A DNA stretch of 64,000 bases from an uncultured Dehalococcoidia bacterium (GTDB lineage Bacteria > Chloroflexota > Dehalococcoidia > Bin125): the NCBI GenBank assembly GCA_958295515.1, contig CATQGW010000004.1, positions 1 through 64,000 of the forward strand. The letters are read 5' to 3'. The translations under genes and the position numbers were made by a program. The stretch's first letter is position 1, and every line of letters begins with the position of its first letter. The notes under the pieces were generated by a model. That model worked only from the letters and a program-made list of their open reading frames with translations. It ran no database searches and was not told the DNA's origin. Below are positions 2,850 to 9,168 of this stretch, one piece after another.

Positions 2850-4145
2850 TTAGGGCAGCGCGCCCACTTCCTGCAGCAGCTCGAGCGTGCCCTCGAGGTC
2901 AGCGAGCGAGGTCAGCGCCAACGACGGCGGATCGAGCTGCTCGAGCGGCGTCAGCTCGGACCGCGCGGCGATCCCCGCGGCCAGCGGGTACTCGCTCGTC
3001 TGATCACGGAAATACTCCTGCGCATGCTCGCCGAGCAGATACTCGATAAAGCGCAGCGCGTTGCCGCGATTATCGGATGCGCTCAGCATCCCCACCCCGG
3101 CCGCATTGATCAGCGCCCCCGCCAGCCCCGGGTCCGTGAAATGGTTGACTGCCGCGAAGTCAGGGTCCTCGTCAAGGAAGCGGTACAGGTAATAGTGATT
3201 GACCAGCCCGATATCCAGTTCGCCGTCGCCCACCGCCTGCACCTGCGGCGAATTCTTCGGATACTCCCGCACCTCGTTCGCGATCATGTCCCGCAGCCAC
3301 TGCTCCGTCACATCGTCGCCGTGGATCTGGCGCATCGCCGTCACAAAGGCCTGGAACGAACCATTGGTCGGAGCCCAGCCGACCCGACCGCGCCACTCGG
3401 GCTCGGTCAGGTCGAAGATCGAACTCGGCGGGTTCGGCACCCGCTCAGGCGAGATCACCAGCACCCGCGCGCGCCCCGAGGTCCCAACCCAGCGCCCCTC
3501 GGCATCGCGGAACTTGGCATCGACGCGATCCAGCACCGAGCCCGGCAGCGCCGCCAGCGCCCCGGCTCCAGCCAGCGCGCCGAGCGCCCCCGCGTCCTGC
3601 GCGTAGTACACATCGGCGGGGCTGCGATCGCCCTCTTCAAGGATCGCGACAGCGAGCTGCGCAGTGTCCGCGTAGCGCACCTTGACGCGGATGCCGGTCT
3701 CCGCTTCAAAGCGCTCGAGCAGCGCGCCGACCAGACTTTCGCCGCGCCCCGAGTAAATCGTGATTTCGCCGGGGTCTTCGTCGGCCGGTTCGCCGGCGGC
3801 GCTGGACTGAGCGGCGCGCTCCGCAGCGTCGGCCGCGCGTTCCGCAGCGTCGGCGGCGCGCTCCGCCGCCGCGGTTGCCGCCGCGCCGCCATCGTCCGAC
3901 TGCGCCCCATCATCGGCCTCAGCCTCGGAGCCGGCCTGCTGCGCGGCGCTGCGGGCATCCTGCGAGGCGTCCGCCGCGCGCTCCGCCGCCTGCGCGGCGC
4001 GTTCGGCCGCCGCCGCCGCCCGCTCCGCAGCCAGCGTCGCCATGTCGGTCGATTCCGAATCACTGGAGCAGGCAACGAGCGCAAGCGCCGCGACCAGCAA
4101 CGCCAGCGCCGACGCGAAGATGAATCGTCGGATCGAATCGGTCAT
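2850..4145 (-). CDS. fbpA: Iron(III) ABC transporter substrate-binding lipoprotein
   Basis: About 431 aa. A signal peptide ends in a lipobox (LALVAC then SS). It is followed by an Ala/Glu/Arg-rich stretch of about 70 residues with repeated AERAADAAERAA units, probably a coiled-coil or helical spacer. The family 1 iron-binding domain follows, with EITIYSGRGESL at its start, DVYYAQDAG, and LVNHYYLYRF, whose tyrosine pair matches the Fe3+-binding tyrosines of FbpA. The frame opens with GTG-ATG (4148/4145). I prefer the ATG at 4145 because AGGAG lies 6 nt before it and only 3 nt before the GTG. The leader folds over this start (see 4137-4195). The long spacer is unusual for the family. Confidence 0.88.
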   Translation of the reverse strand: MTDSIRRFIFASALALLVAALALVACSSDSESTDMATLAAERAAAAAERAAQAAERAADASQDARSAAQQAGSEAEADDGAQSDDGGAAATAAAERAADAAERAADAAERAAQSSAAGEPADEDPGEITIYSGRGESLVGALLERFEAETGIRVKVRYADTAQLAVAILEEGDRSPADVYYAQDAGALGALAGAGALAALPGSVLDRVDAKFRDAEGRWVGTSGRARVLVISPERVPNPPSSIFDLTEPEWRGRVGWAPTNGSFQAFVTAMRQIHGDDVTEQWLRDMIANEVREYPKNSPQVQAVGDGELDIGLVNHYYLYRFLDEDPDFAAVNHFTDPGLAGALINAAGVGMLSASDNRGNALRFIEYLLGEHAQEYFRDQTSEYPLAAGIAARSELTPLEQLDPPSLALTSLADLEGTLELLQEVGALP

Positions 4146-4195
4146 CACGATCTCCTCACGACGCCGATCTGCGGCGTCATGGAGATCATGACAGT
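4137..4195 (-). promoter_or_regulatory. Leader hairpin that sequesters the fbpA SD and start codon
   Basis: On the minus-strand transcript, GATCTCC (4181-4187) pairs with GGAGATC (4149-4155), which contains the Shine-Dalgarno sequence. Inside it, GACGCCG (4172-4178) pairs with CGGCGTC (4160-4166) around a 5-nt loop. Outside it, several further pairs including G-U wobbles extend through the ATG at 4145. Two perfect 7-bp arms are too much for chance in 60 bases. Possible roles are an iron-responsive or temperature-responsive translational switch, or an operator dyad. The structure is read directly; the function is inferred. Confidence 0.6.
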
Positions 4196-4215
4196 TTTTT
4201 GCAGTTTATGCAAGT
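4187..4215 (-). promoter_or_regulatory. Possible promoter for the iron-uptake genes
   Basis: On the minus strand TTGCAT is followed after 17 nt by CATGAT, a moderate match to -35/-10 boxes. The site lies between the rpsN stop and the fbpA leader hairpin. The local A/T-rich patch (a run of six A with AAACTGC repeats) stands out in this GC-rich window. It would give the importer its own promoter, independent of the PAC2-FTR-S14 genes upstream. Confidence 0.35.
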
Positions 4216-4240: not shown

Positions 4241-4543
4241 CTACCAGGACGACTTACGGACGCCGGGCAGCAGGCCGAGCGAGGCCATCTCCCGGAAGGT
4301 GATGCGCGAAAGCCCGAACTTGCGCATGTAGGCGCGCGGACGCCCCGTCACCTGGCAGCGGTTCTTCAGCCGCGTCGGGCTGCTGTTGCGGGGCAACTGC
4401 TGGAGCTGCCAGTGCAGCCGCTGGCGCTCCGCCGGGTCCTGCGCGTTCTTCATCTGCTGCTTCAGCTGCGCGCGGCGATCCTTGTACTTCGCGTGCATTT
4501 CGCGACGCTTCAGGTCCCGGTGAATGTTGCTCTTACGCGCCAC
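4241..4543 (-). CDS. rpsN: 30S ribosomal protein S14, zinc-independent form
   Basis: 100 aa, colinear with E. coli S14, including the C-terminal stretch [20 protein letters not shown] and the terminal KSSW. It is the long form without the CxxC-CxxC zinc ribbon; only one cysteine is present. S14 binds 16S rRNA in the head of the small subunit. The gene is not in a ribosomal-protein operon but lies between an FTR-like gene and an iron importer. Stand-alone zinc-free S14 copies are often alternative copies used under zinc shortage. I see no clear Zur site here, so that role is inference. Confidence 0.93.
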
Positions 4544-4600: not shown

Positions 4601-5062
4601 TCAGTCCGACGCTTTGCGCTTCTCGATTTTGCGCCCCTCACGCTCTTCCAGACGGCCCAGCGCGCGACCCTTCTCCGGCATCGGGTCCGGGCGCTCCCCG
4701 TAGGCCGTGCGGCCTTCGTGGTCGGCGGGCAGGTATTCGGTGATGGGAAGACCTTCCTCATCGCAGAAGAGCAGTCAATGGCAGTATTTCCAGCGCTGCA
4801 TCTCCTCGCAGGGGCAAATCCAGGTCGAAGACTTGACCTCCTCGGCCTTGTCCTCATAGAAATTGCAGGGGCAGAGCGGGCGGCCAACCTCGTCGATGTG
4901 CTTCGCCAGCCCGATCACGAGAAACTCGGTGATCTCTTCCTGGGGGTGGAGATGAGTGCCGCTCTTGTTGGCGAAGTTGCGCACGAACTTCCACATCTTG
5001 TCCAGGTTCTTCTGCGAAGCCTGGCCGCGATCAGCGTCGCTCGGCTGCTCGACATCAGTCAT
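4601..5062 (-). CDS. Ferredoxin-thioredoxin reductase catalytic-type protein with in-frame TGA (candidate selenoprotein)
   Basis: Conventional translation stops after 95 aa at TGA 4775-4777. Before it the protein shows Cys64-Pro-Cys66, Cys83-Pro-Cys85 and Cys94-His, exactly the CPC-X16-CPC-X8-CHC spacing of the FTR catalytic chain, with TGA where the last Cys is expected. Reading through gives 57 more codons (LLFCDEEGLPITEYLP, then DHEGRTAYG and PMPEKGRAL), which look like the normal family C-terminus, ending at TGA 4601-4603. Total 153 aa. In the plant-type enzyme the first, third, fourth and fifth cysteines bind the 4Fe-4S cluster and the second and sixth form the redox disulfide. The TGA would therefore make a Cys66-Sec96 pair. 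The start ATG lies 2 nt after the PAC2 stop. Alternatives are a nonsense mutation or a sequencing error. Confidence 0.82.
4742..4762 (-). promoter_or_regulatory. Candidate bacterial SECIS hairpin downstream of the FTR TGA
   Basis: Counting U of the UGA (4777) as 1, positions 16-36 fold as GAUG/CAUC plus GGAA/UUCC with one bulged A and an apical GGUC tetraloop at positions 25-28. E. coli fdhF has its essential loop GU at about 23-24 and a bulged U in the stem, so the spacing and loop agree with the bacterial SECIS pattern. The codons used here (GAT, GAA, GGT, CTT) are A/T-ending, unlike the strongly GC3 neighbouring codons, as expected if RNA structure constrains them. Confidence 0.6.
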
Positions 5063-7551: not shown

Positions 7552-9168
7552 ATGCACATCGCCGCCGTTCCGCACACCAGGAGGTTGGCTACTGCGCTGG
7601 CGCTCGCCGCCTTGCTCCTGTTGGCCGGCCTCGCCCTCGGCGGCGGTTGGCAACAAGCGGAAGCCCAGGGTGAAGGTCGTGCGGTAGCGATCACGGTGGG
7701 CAATCAGCATGCCTGCGTGCTGCTCGACTCAGGCGCGCTGGAGTGTTGGGGAGACAACGGTTTCGGTCAAACCAACGCGCCGAGCGGCCGTTTTCGCGCC
7801 GTGAGCGTGGGCGTCTACCACACCTGTGGGCTGCGAGAGTCCGGCGAGATCGACTGCTGGGGATTTCAGTTTAACGGCCAGACGGATGCGCCGAGCGGTC
7901 ATTTCAGCGCCGTCAGCGCGAGCGGGTGGCACAGCTGTGGGCTGCGGGAGACGGGCACTGTCGAGTGCTGGGGAGGGAACGAGCATGGTCAAACGGACGC
8001 GCCGAGCGGTCGCTTCAGCGCCGTCAGCGCCGGCGGGTGGCACACCTGCGGGCTGCGCGAGACGGGCGGAGTCGAGTGCTGGGGATGGAACGGGGACGGC
8101 CAGACGGATGCGCCGAGCGGTCACTTCAGCGCCGTCAGCGCGAGCGGGTGGCACACCTGCGGGCTGCGGGAAACGGGCGAAGTCGAGTGCTGGGGAGGGG
8201 GAGGGGCTGGCCAAATGGATGCGCCGGGCGATCGCTTCAGCGCGGTCAGCGTGGGCGACTCTCACAACTGCGGGCTGCGGGAAACGGGCGTTGTCGAGTG
8301 CTGGGGAAACAACGGGGCTGGCCAAACGGATGCGCCGGGAGATCGCTTCACCGCGGTCAGCGTGGGCGGCTCTCACAGCTGCGGGCTGCGGGAAACGGGC
8401 GCTGTCGAGTGCTGGGGATCGAAGTACTACGGCCAAACGGACGCGCCGAGCGGTCAATTCAGCGCGGTCAGCGTGAGCAGCGTGGGCAGCGCGCGCAGCT
8501 GTGGGCTGCGCGAGACGGGCGTTGTCGAATGCTGGGGAGACAGCGAGTACGGCCAAGTGGATGCGCCGAGCGGCCAATTCAGCGCGGTCAGCGTGGGCAG
8601 CGCGCGCAGCTGCGGACTGCGCGAGACGGGCGAAATCGAGTGCTGGGCAGACAGCGAATACGGCGAAGTGGATGCGCCGAGCGGCCGCTTTAGCGCGGTC
8701 AGCGTGAGCAGCGCACACAGCTGCGGGCTGCACGAGACGGGCACAGTCGAATGCTGGGGAGACAACAGGTACGGTCAAACGGACGCGCCGAACGGTCGTT
8801 TCAGCGCAGTCAGCGCGGGTAGGGTGCATAGCTGCGGGCTGCGCGAGACCGGCGAAATCGAGTGCTGGGGATATCAGTTCGACGGCCAGGCACAGCCGCC
8901 CGCAGGCAAGCATCGCGCCGTCAGCGCCGGGCAGTACCACGCCTGCGCGCTGAGTGAAGACGGAACCGTCTCCTGCTGGATGATCTTCAACGGCGCAGGC
9001 GATGTGCCCACCTGGCTGCGCCCGGCCAGCCTCCCGCTCACCGGCACAGGCGGCCTACTGGACCGCCGCATTGGCGCTCTGGAGCTGGGTGCGATCGCCC
9101 TCGCAGCGCTGGGCATCTCGACGCTATCGCTGCTCACACTGTTGGCATGGCGTCGGAGCCGCACATAG
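7552..9168 (+). CDS. Secreted RCC1-repeat surface protein with LPxTG-like tail
   Basis: 538 aa. Signal peptide of about 38 residues ending QAEAQ, then twelve RCC1-type repeats of about 37 residues (residues 44-490), each built on FSAVSxGxxHxCGLRETGxVECWG and ending GQTDAPSG, with two cysteines per repeat. RCC1 repeats form a beta-propeller; seven make one propeller, so twelve imply one complete and one partial or a non-standard fold. The C-terminus is LPLTGTGG, a hydrophobic helix, then RRSRT, the layout of a sortase sorting signal. Partner or ligand is unknown. Paired cysteines suggest disulfides outside the cell. Confidence 0.85.
   Translation: MHIAAVPHTRRLATALALAALLLLAGLALGGGWQQAEAQGEGRAVAITVGNQHACVLLDSGALECWGDNGFGQTNAPSGRFRAVSVGVYHTCGLRESGEIDCWGFQFNGQTDAPSGHFSAVSASGWHSCGLRETGTVECWGGNEHGQTDAPSGRFSAVSAGGWHTCGLRETGGVECWGWNGDGQTDAPSGHFSAVSASGWHTCGLRETGEVECWGGGGAGQMDAPGDRFSAVSVGDSHNCGLRETGVVECWGNNGAGQTDAPGDRFTAVSVGGSHSCGLRETGAVECWGSKYYGQTDAPSGQFSAVSVSSVGSARSCGLRETGVVECWGDSEYGQVDAPSGQFSAVSVGSARSCGLRETGEIECWADSEYGEVDAPSGRFSAVSVSSAHSCGLHETGTVECWGDNRYGQTDAPNGRFSAVSAGRVHSCGLRETGEIECWGYQFDGQAQPPAGKHRAVSAGQYHACALSEDGTVSCWMIFNGAGDVPTWLRPASLPLTGTGGLLDRRIGALELGAIALAALGISTLSLLTLLAWRRSRT
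7681..9020 (+). repeat. Twelve tandem 111-bp coding repeats
   Basis: The RCC1 modules are also repeated at DNA level: units of 111 bp (one unit, number 8, is 9 bp longer by a VSS insertion at about 8476). Units 3-11 are highly alike, with blocks such as tgcgggctgcgggaaacggg recurring. Near-identity of the internal units compared with the first and last suggests recent expansion by recombination, so copy number may vary between strains. Confidence 0.85.

Follow-up and report, generated by a model that had tools for sequence, protein, structure and literature searches.

Why should a gene for iron uptake that lies directly behind a ribosomal protein gene carry, just before its start codon, an inverted repeat able to bury its own ribosome-binding site? 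The repeat stands before a ferric-iron transporter operon in the 64,000-nucleotide stretch of Chloroflexota DNA analysed here (the window). An earlier note on this DNA read it as the leader of a translational switch, opened by a ligand, a protein, temperature or an sRNA. Is the left arm of the repeat part of the messenger, as such a switch demands, or is it promoter DNA? All genes, promoter elements and hairpin arms of the window described below lie on the minus strand unless the plus strand is named.

The iron transporter locus and its hairpin

The gene concerned (2850-4145, with its ATG at 4145 and an alternative GTG start at 4148) encodes an FbpA-type ferric-iron-binding lipoprotein-like protein. 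Its top match among solved structures is 7w3w, a ferric iron-binding protein (310 bits), and many further iron-binding proteins, HitA and FbpA among them, come next, which supports the identity given to it in the earlier note; the SBP_bac families are also matched. NCBIfam models match it only far under their cut-offs, with phosphonate-type transporter models ranking first, so that the assignment to iron depends on the matches to the sequences of solved structures. Two genes of the same operon follow on its 3' side in the same direction, a two-domain ABC permease (1117-2742; BPD_transp_1, in two stretches) and then an ABC ATPase with a TOBE domain (30-1124; ABC_tran and TOBE_2). Directly upstream of fbpA is rpsN, encoding ribosomal protein S14 (4241-4543; Pfam PF00253), the sole S14 gene found in the genome (a single match). 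The gap between rpsN and fbpA, reading down from 4220, is gggttacTTGCATAAACTGCAAaaaactgtCATGATctccatGACGCCGcagatCGGCGTCgtgAGGAGatcgtgATG, and a terminator scan found no minus-strand terminator between the two genes. Because this is the only S14 gene found and no such terminator precedes fbpA, read-through from rpsN is plausible.

Two perfect 7-bp stems occupy this gap, as the earlier note had described. The outer stem pairs GATCTCC (4187-4181) with GGAGATC (4155-4149), and the inner stem pairs GACGCCG (4178-4172) with CGGCGTC (4166-4160) around the loop CAGAT. In the minimum-energy fold the two merge, with extra pairs and wobbles, into a helix of about 21 bp that is interrupted by a 2-nt bulge (GA, 4157-4156). 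The outer left arm, GTCATGATCTCC, extends over 4181-4192 around the perfect core at 4187-4181. The outer right arm (4144-4155) comprises most of the Shine-Dalgarno sequence AGGAG (4152-4156, 6 nt before the ATG) together with the start codon's first bases; the helix thus takes in most of AGGAG and extends, by wobble pairing, into the start codon.

How unusual is such a hairpin? The 52-mer folds with -33.0 kcal/mol, and in absolute terms stability of this order is common in the GC-rich window, where 135 clusters of 60-nt windows are at least as stable. Corrected for composition it is uncommon. The hairpin 60-mer has a z of about -5.4 relative to dinucleotide shuffles; in separate folding tests none of 200 shuffles folds equally well, and a z of -4.5 or lower is reached by just 6 of 2665 sampled plus-strand 60-mers, the hairpin site being among the six. 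From these counts we estimate the chance of a comparable hairpin over any given start codon at roughly 0.5%. The hairpin-forming sequence before the ferric-iron transporter gene is real. It has no match in Rfam, so that a known riboswitch is rejected, in keeping with the earlier note, which had recognised no riboswitch class. A repeated element was also considered and rejected, as the region, used as a BLAST query on the genome, returns only itself.

Several other features of the locus deserve mention. Between its signal peptide and its binding domain, the iron-binding protein has an N-terminal Ala/Glu/Arg-rich repeat (AAERAADAAERAA...; about 3780-4100), with related repeats in some relatives (L014) and none in others. 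A second form of the protein, found in relatives L018, L021, L025, L028 and L031, has in the same position an extra N-terminal region of about 130 residues ('FDVQVRAxLxxDGxIEFxLRADGxxLTP...'), and the genomes of some relatives hold both forms in tandem. At 4602-5062 the gene for the catalytic chain of ferredoxin-thioredoxin reductase has an in-frame TGA at the last Cys of its CHC motif (KYCH-TGA-LLFC), beyond which the conserved frame runs for about 57 residues and ends in KRKASD followed by TGA. The in-frame TGA is present in every family locus that reaches the gene (L004-L006, L012-L017, L019-L023, L025 and L028). Since a tRNA-Sec gene is present in the genome, this chain is probably a selenoprotein, of a kind already known from the Sec-containing homologues reported from ocean metagenomes (PMC2398784). 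Finally, a 538-residue open frame on the plus strand (7552-9168) has repeats of the form HSCGLRETGxVECWGxNxxGQTDAPSGxFSAVS that resemble RCC1-type repeats by eye.

A predicted promoter at the left arm

Where would transcription of fbpA begin? The comparison covered 20 genomes of one Chloroflexota family, the relatives being of genera other than the window's. In eleven loci, the window and 10 relatives, rpsN lies directly upstream and a box can be recognised, and these were aligned on the TTG of the -35 element. A locus with a degenerate box (L030) was not counted as support, and neither were L024 and more distant genera, in which no box is recognisable, nor four loci with a different arrangement (L018, L025, L028 and L031). 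The 11 loci share, in ungapped alignment, a -35 element, a 17-nt spacer, a -10 element and an invariant C. In the window the -35 element is TTGCAT (4208-4213), its TTG being invariant, and the -10 element, 17 nt away and within the outer left arm, is CATGAT (4185-4190), where the relatives have GATAAT, AATAAT, CATAAT, GACAAT, AATGAT and similar sequences. The predicted transcription start is the G at 4178, seven bases after the -10 element and kept in nine of the 10 relatives. The anchors were picked by eye with the -10 element in view, so that its conservation, though it follows from the alignment, is no blind test. Mean pairwise identity among the 11 loci is 0.70 in the box, 0.73 in the -10 element and 0.49 from there to the start; it is 0.33-0.37 past the predicted start and 0.34 in the upstream gap. 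The -35 element resembles the consensus modestly, and a consensus scan missed the promoter at fbpA. Taken together, the comparison argues that fbpA has a promoter of its own, with its -35 element at 4213-4208, its -10 element at 4190-4185 and a predicted start at about 4178. Because the outer left arm consists of the -10 element and its spacer, this start falls within the hairpin and, if it is correct, the outer left arm would be promoter DNA, not leader RNA.

With transcription starting within the repeat, as predicted, the normal mRNA would be without the outer left arm, and both arms would be present only in RNA that enters from upstream, that is, from rpsN. The calculated folds of the two RNAs differ. 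RNA with the left arm has a z of -5.5, whereas RNA from 4178 has a z of -0.4, no better than shuffles. In the latter, the predicted mRNA, the inner hairpin, GACGCCG-cagat-CGGCGTC (4160-4178), stands at the very 5' end, and AGGAG lies outside it. Opening of the ribosome-binding region is calculated to cost 19.2 kcal/mol with the left arm, compared with 11.8 kcal/mol for RNA starting at 4178; as this second cost is still considerable, the calculation does not predict a fully accessible site in the promoter's RNA. A hairpin peculiar to read-through RNA should place a stem over the ribosome-binding site in the long RNA, which the calculated fold does, and should lose one arm in the RNA of the gene's own promoter, which is predicted here from sequence comparison.

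These results bear directly on the proposed switch. The fold was expected to shut off translation, and by calculation the ribosome-binding site would indeed be hidden in RNA that carries both arms (19 against 12 kcal/mol). For a ligand, protein, temperature or sRNA to open it, however, the main mRNA would have to come from upstream of 4192, whereas the conserved promoter gives a predicted start at about 4178, which by comparison lies downstream of 4181 and so leaves the left arm outside the leader. Compensatory changes in related leaders, which had been put forward as a check on the fold, are not convincingly present. Leader identity among the 11 loci is at background; in the relatives, all of other genera, pairing is not retained, and folding the aligned leaders jointly gives an empty consensus. 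When pairs of the window's structure are counted across the alignment, they barely outnumber those of slid controls; this covariation test is weak, since the leader alignment is poor. In the 10 relatives with the same arrangement, moreover, the opening energies of the two RNAs show little or no difference in most cases, implying that the hairpin is not characteristic of the family. No conserved structure with covariation was found in the transcribed leader, such as would mark a riboswitch or other conserved cis-regulatory leader. With the predicted start inside the hairpin, an unconserved leader, no covariation and no Rfam match, the opened switch is unsupported, and we regard it as improbable.

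Could the repeat instead act on the opposite strand? A scan reports a plus-strand terminator-like site at 4176-4192 with the tail AGTTTTTTGC, and a hairpin followed by TTTTTT (in the 4193-4199 region) might serve as an intrinsic terminator for an antisense RNA. Yet 0.4 such sites are expected by chance in the scan, no plus-strand gene is recognised upstream in the window, and the T run belongs to the promoter spacer and is not shared by relatives, all of which makes this explanation very unlikely.

A putative Fur-type palindrome over the -35 element

The box that overlies the -35 element is the palindrome TTGCATAAACTGCAA (4199-4213), of the form TTGCA-N5-TGCAA, and it is conserved in the family. 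In the 2.6-Mb genome the exact pattern occurs once, at the fbpA promoter. Boxes with a single mismatch number 29 elsewhere in the genome, near the level of a backwards-pattern control (14); a single-mismatch box at L045 is apparently non-intergenic. A family-wide search that allowed up to two mismatches returned, besides the sites at fbpA, another recurrent site, TTGCAATCTATGCAA, which adjoins an imelysin gene in G006, G010, G012, G013 and G014. This second copy of the palindrome is conserved in the relatives' loci L061, L063, L055, L056 and L057. On its opposite side, in several loci and as far as the sequence records extend, are genes for a chlorite-dismutase-family (HemQ-like) protein and ferrochelatase, the gene identities here being assigned with Pfam for G006 and G010. 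The copies beside imelysin, HemQ-like and ferrochelatase genes suggest a small iron/haem regulon in the relatives. No counterpart of the relatives' box-bearing imelysin gene was found in the window's genome.

What protein might bind this palindrome? The genome encodes one Fur homologue (one PF01475 match over the cut-off), and a palindromic operator over a promoter, common to iron genes, is what a Fur-regulated promoter would be expected to show. TTGCAA half-sites are also present in TTAATTGCAAATCATTTGCAATTGC, the operator that was co-crystallised with the Fur of Magnetospirillum (PMC4506495), and at the feoAB1 site of that Fur the TTGCA/TGCAA half-sites stand, as at fbpA, at an iron-uptake promoter (PMC4506495). 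The half-sites are 5 nt apart at fbpA, compared with 7 nt in the crystallised Fur operator. We infer that the palindrome is a putative iron-responsive operator of the Fur type. A brief literature search surfaced no described Fur motif for this Chloroflexota family.

The repeat might also be a DNA site for a second regulator acting at the -10 element, as 4176-4192 contains GTCATG-GAGAT-CATGAC, itself a short palindrome. This sequence is absent in relatives, and a BLAST search of the genome with the region finds no second copy; we consider such a site highly improbable.

Proposed insulation against read-through from rpsN

We propose that control of the ferric-iron transporter operon is transcriptional and acts at its own promoter, through the Fur-type palindrome over the -35 element. 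The mRNA from this promoter would lack the outer left arm and keep a small 5' hairpin, with the Shine-Dalgarno sequence left outside it. The full hairpin would form solely in rpsN read-through RNA, whose translation would be blocked, and the iron-controlled gene would then not be made from a ribosomal-protein transcript. To this reading as a whole, a promoter with a Fur-type box and a hairpin that insulates against rpsN read-through, we give a probability of about 0.55.

Arrangements of this kind have been described elsewhere. In Bacillus subtilis, spoIIGA-sigE (spoIIG) read-through RNA is proposed to form a hairpin of 20+ bp that keeps sigG from being translated, and RNA from the sigG promoter cannot form it (PMC5942855). 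The fbpA hairpin is similar in its length of 20+ bp over the ribosome-binding site and in the predicted inability of own-promoter RNA to form it; it differs in serving an iron transporter downstream of rpsN, in a different phylum, rather than a sporulation sigma gene, and here read-through is presumed. The ribosome-binding site of gene e in phage T4 is hidden in the long early transcripts, whereas RNA from the late promoters just upstream, in which the 5' portion of the structure is missing, is translated well (PMC3014915); I-TevI is similar (PMC2988022). In gene e, as in soc, 49 and I-TevI (PMC3014915, PMC2988022), the late promoter lies in the 5' strand of the stem, as is predicted at fbpA. 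The T4 system concerns phage timing and its effect on translation has been demonstrated, whereas that of the fbpA hairpin is predicted. On paper, then, the fbpA arrangement resembles those of sigG and T4 gene e.

Was the repeat selected for insulation? It may instead be functionless, a quasi-palindrome that chance or mutation produced in a GC-rich genome, beside a promoter and Fur-type box that are just as described above. Relatives without the repeat, the frequency of equally stable folds in the window and the lack of covariation would all fit this explanation; the composition-corrected z of about -5.4 and the span of the repeat, exactly from the -10 element to the start codon, count against it. 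We hold it possible, though clearly less probable than insulation. The promoter and its box, which both explanations share, are the firmer part of the result.

A broader version of the insulation proposal would have the -10/start region of fbpA kept complementary to the ribosome-binding region by selection in this Chloroflexota lineage, silencing read-through RNA so that only RNA from the iron promoter is translated. A mild excess of complementarity between these regions (p 0.006 by permutation, window excluded) weakens to p 0.025-0.31 when each subclade is represented by a single genome. The idea draws on weak complementarity that some relatives show, and we consider it doubtful. A related candidate, a conserved leader stem pairing the region after the -10 element with the ribosome-binding region in some relatives (TCCCG...CGGGA or TCCCTG...CAGGGA), was rejected because the excess is weak by subclade and the opening energies barely change.

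We conclude that the promoter with an insulating hairpin stands at about even odds, followed by the functionless repeat, with the ligand-operated leader switch low. What appeared to be a riboswitch candidate thus becomes a testable promoter prediction, and TTGCA-N5-TGCAA is offered as a candidate iron operator for a Chloroflexota family. If the insulation works, it illustrates how a gene under iron control can follow immediately on a ribosomal-protein gene and yet escape activation by it.
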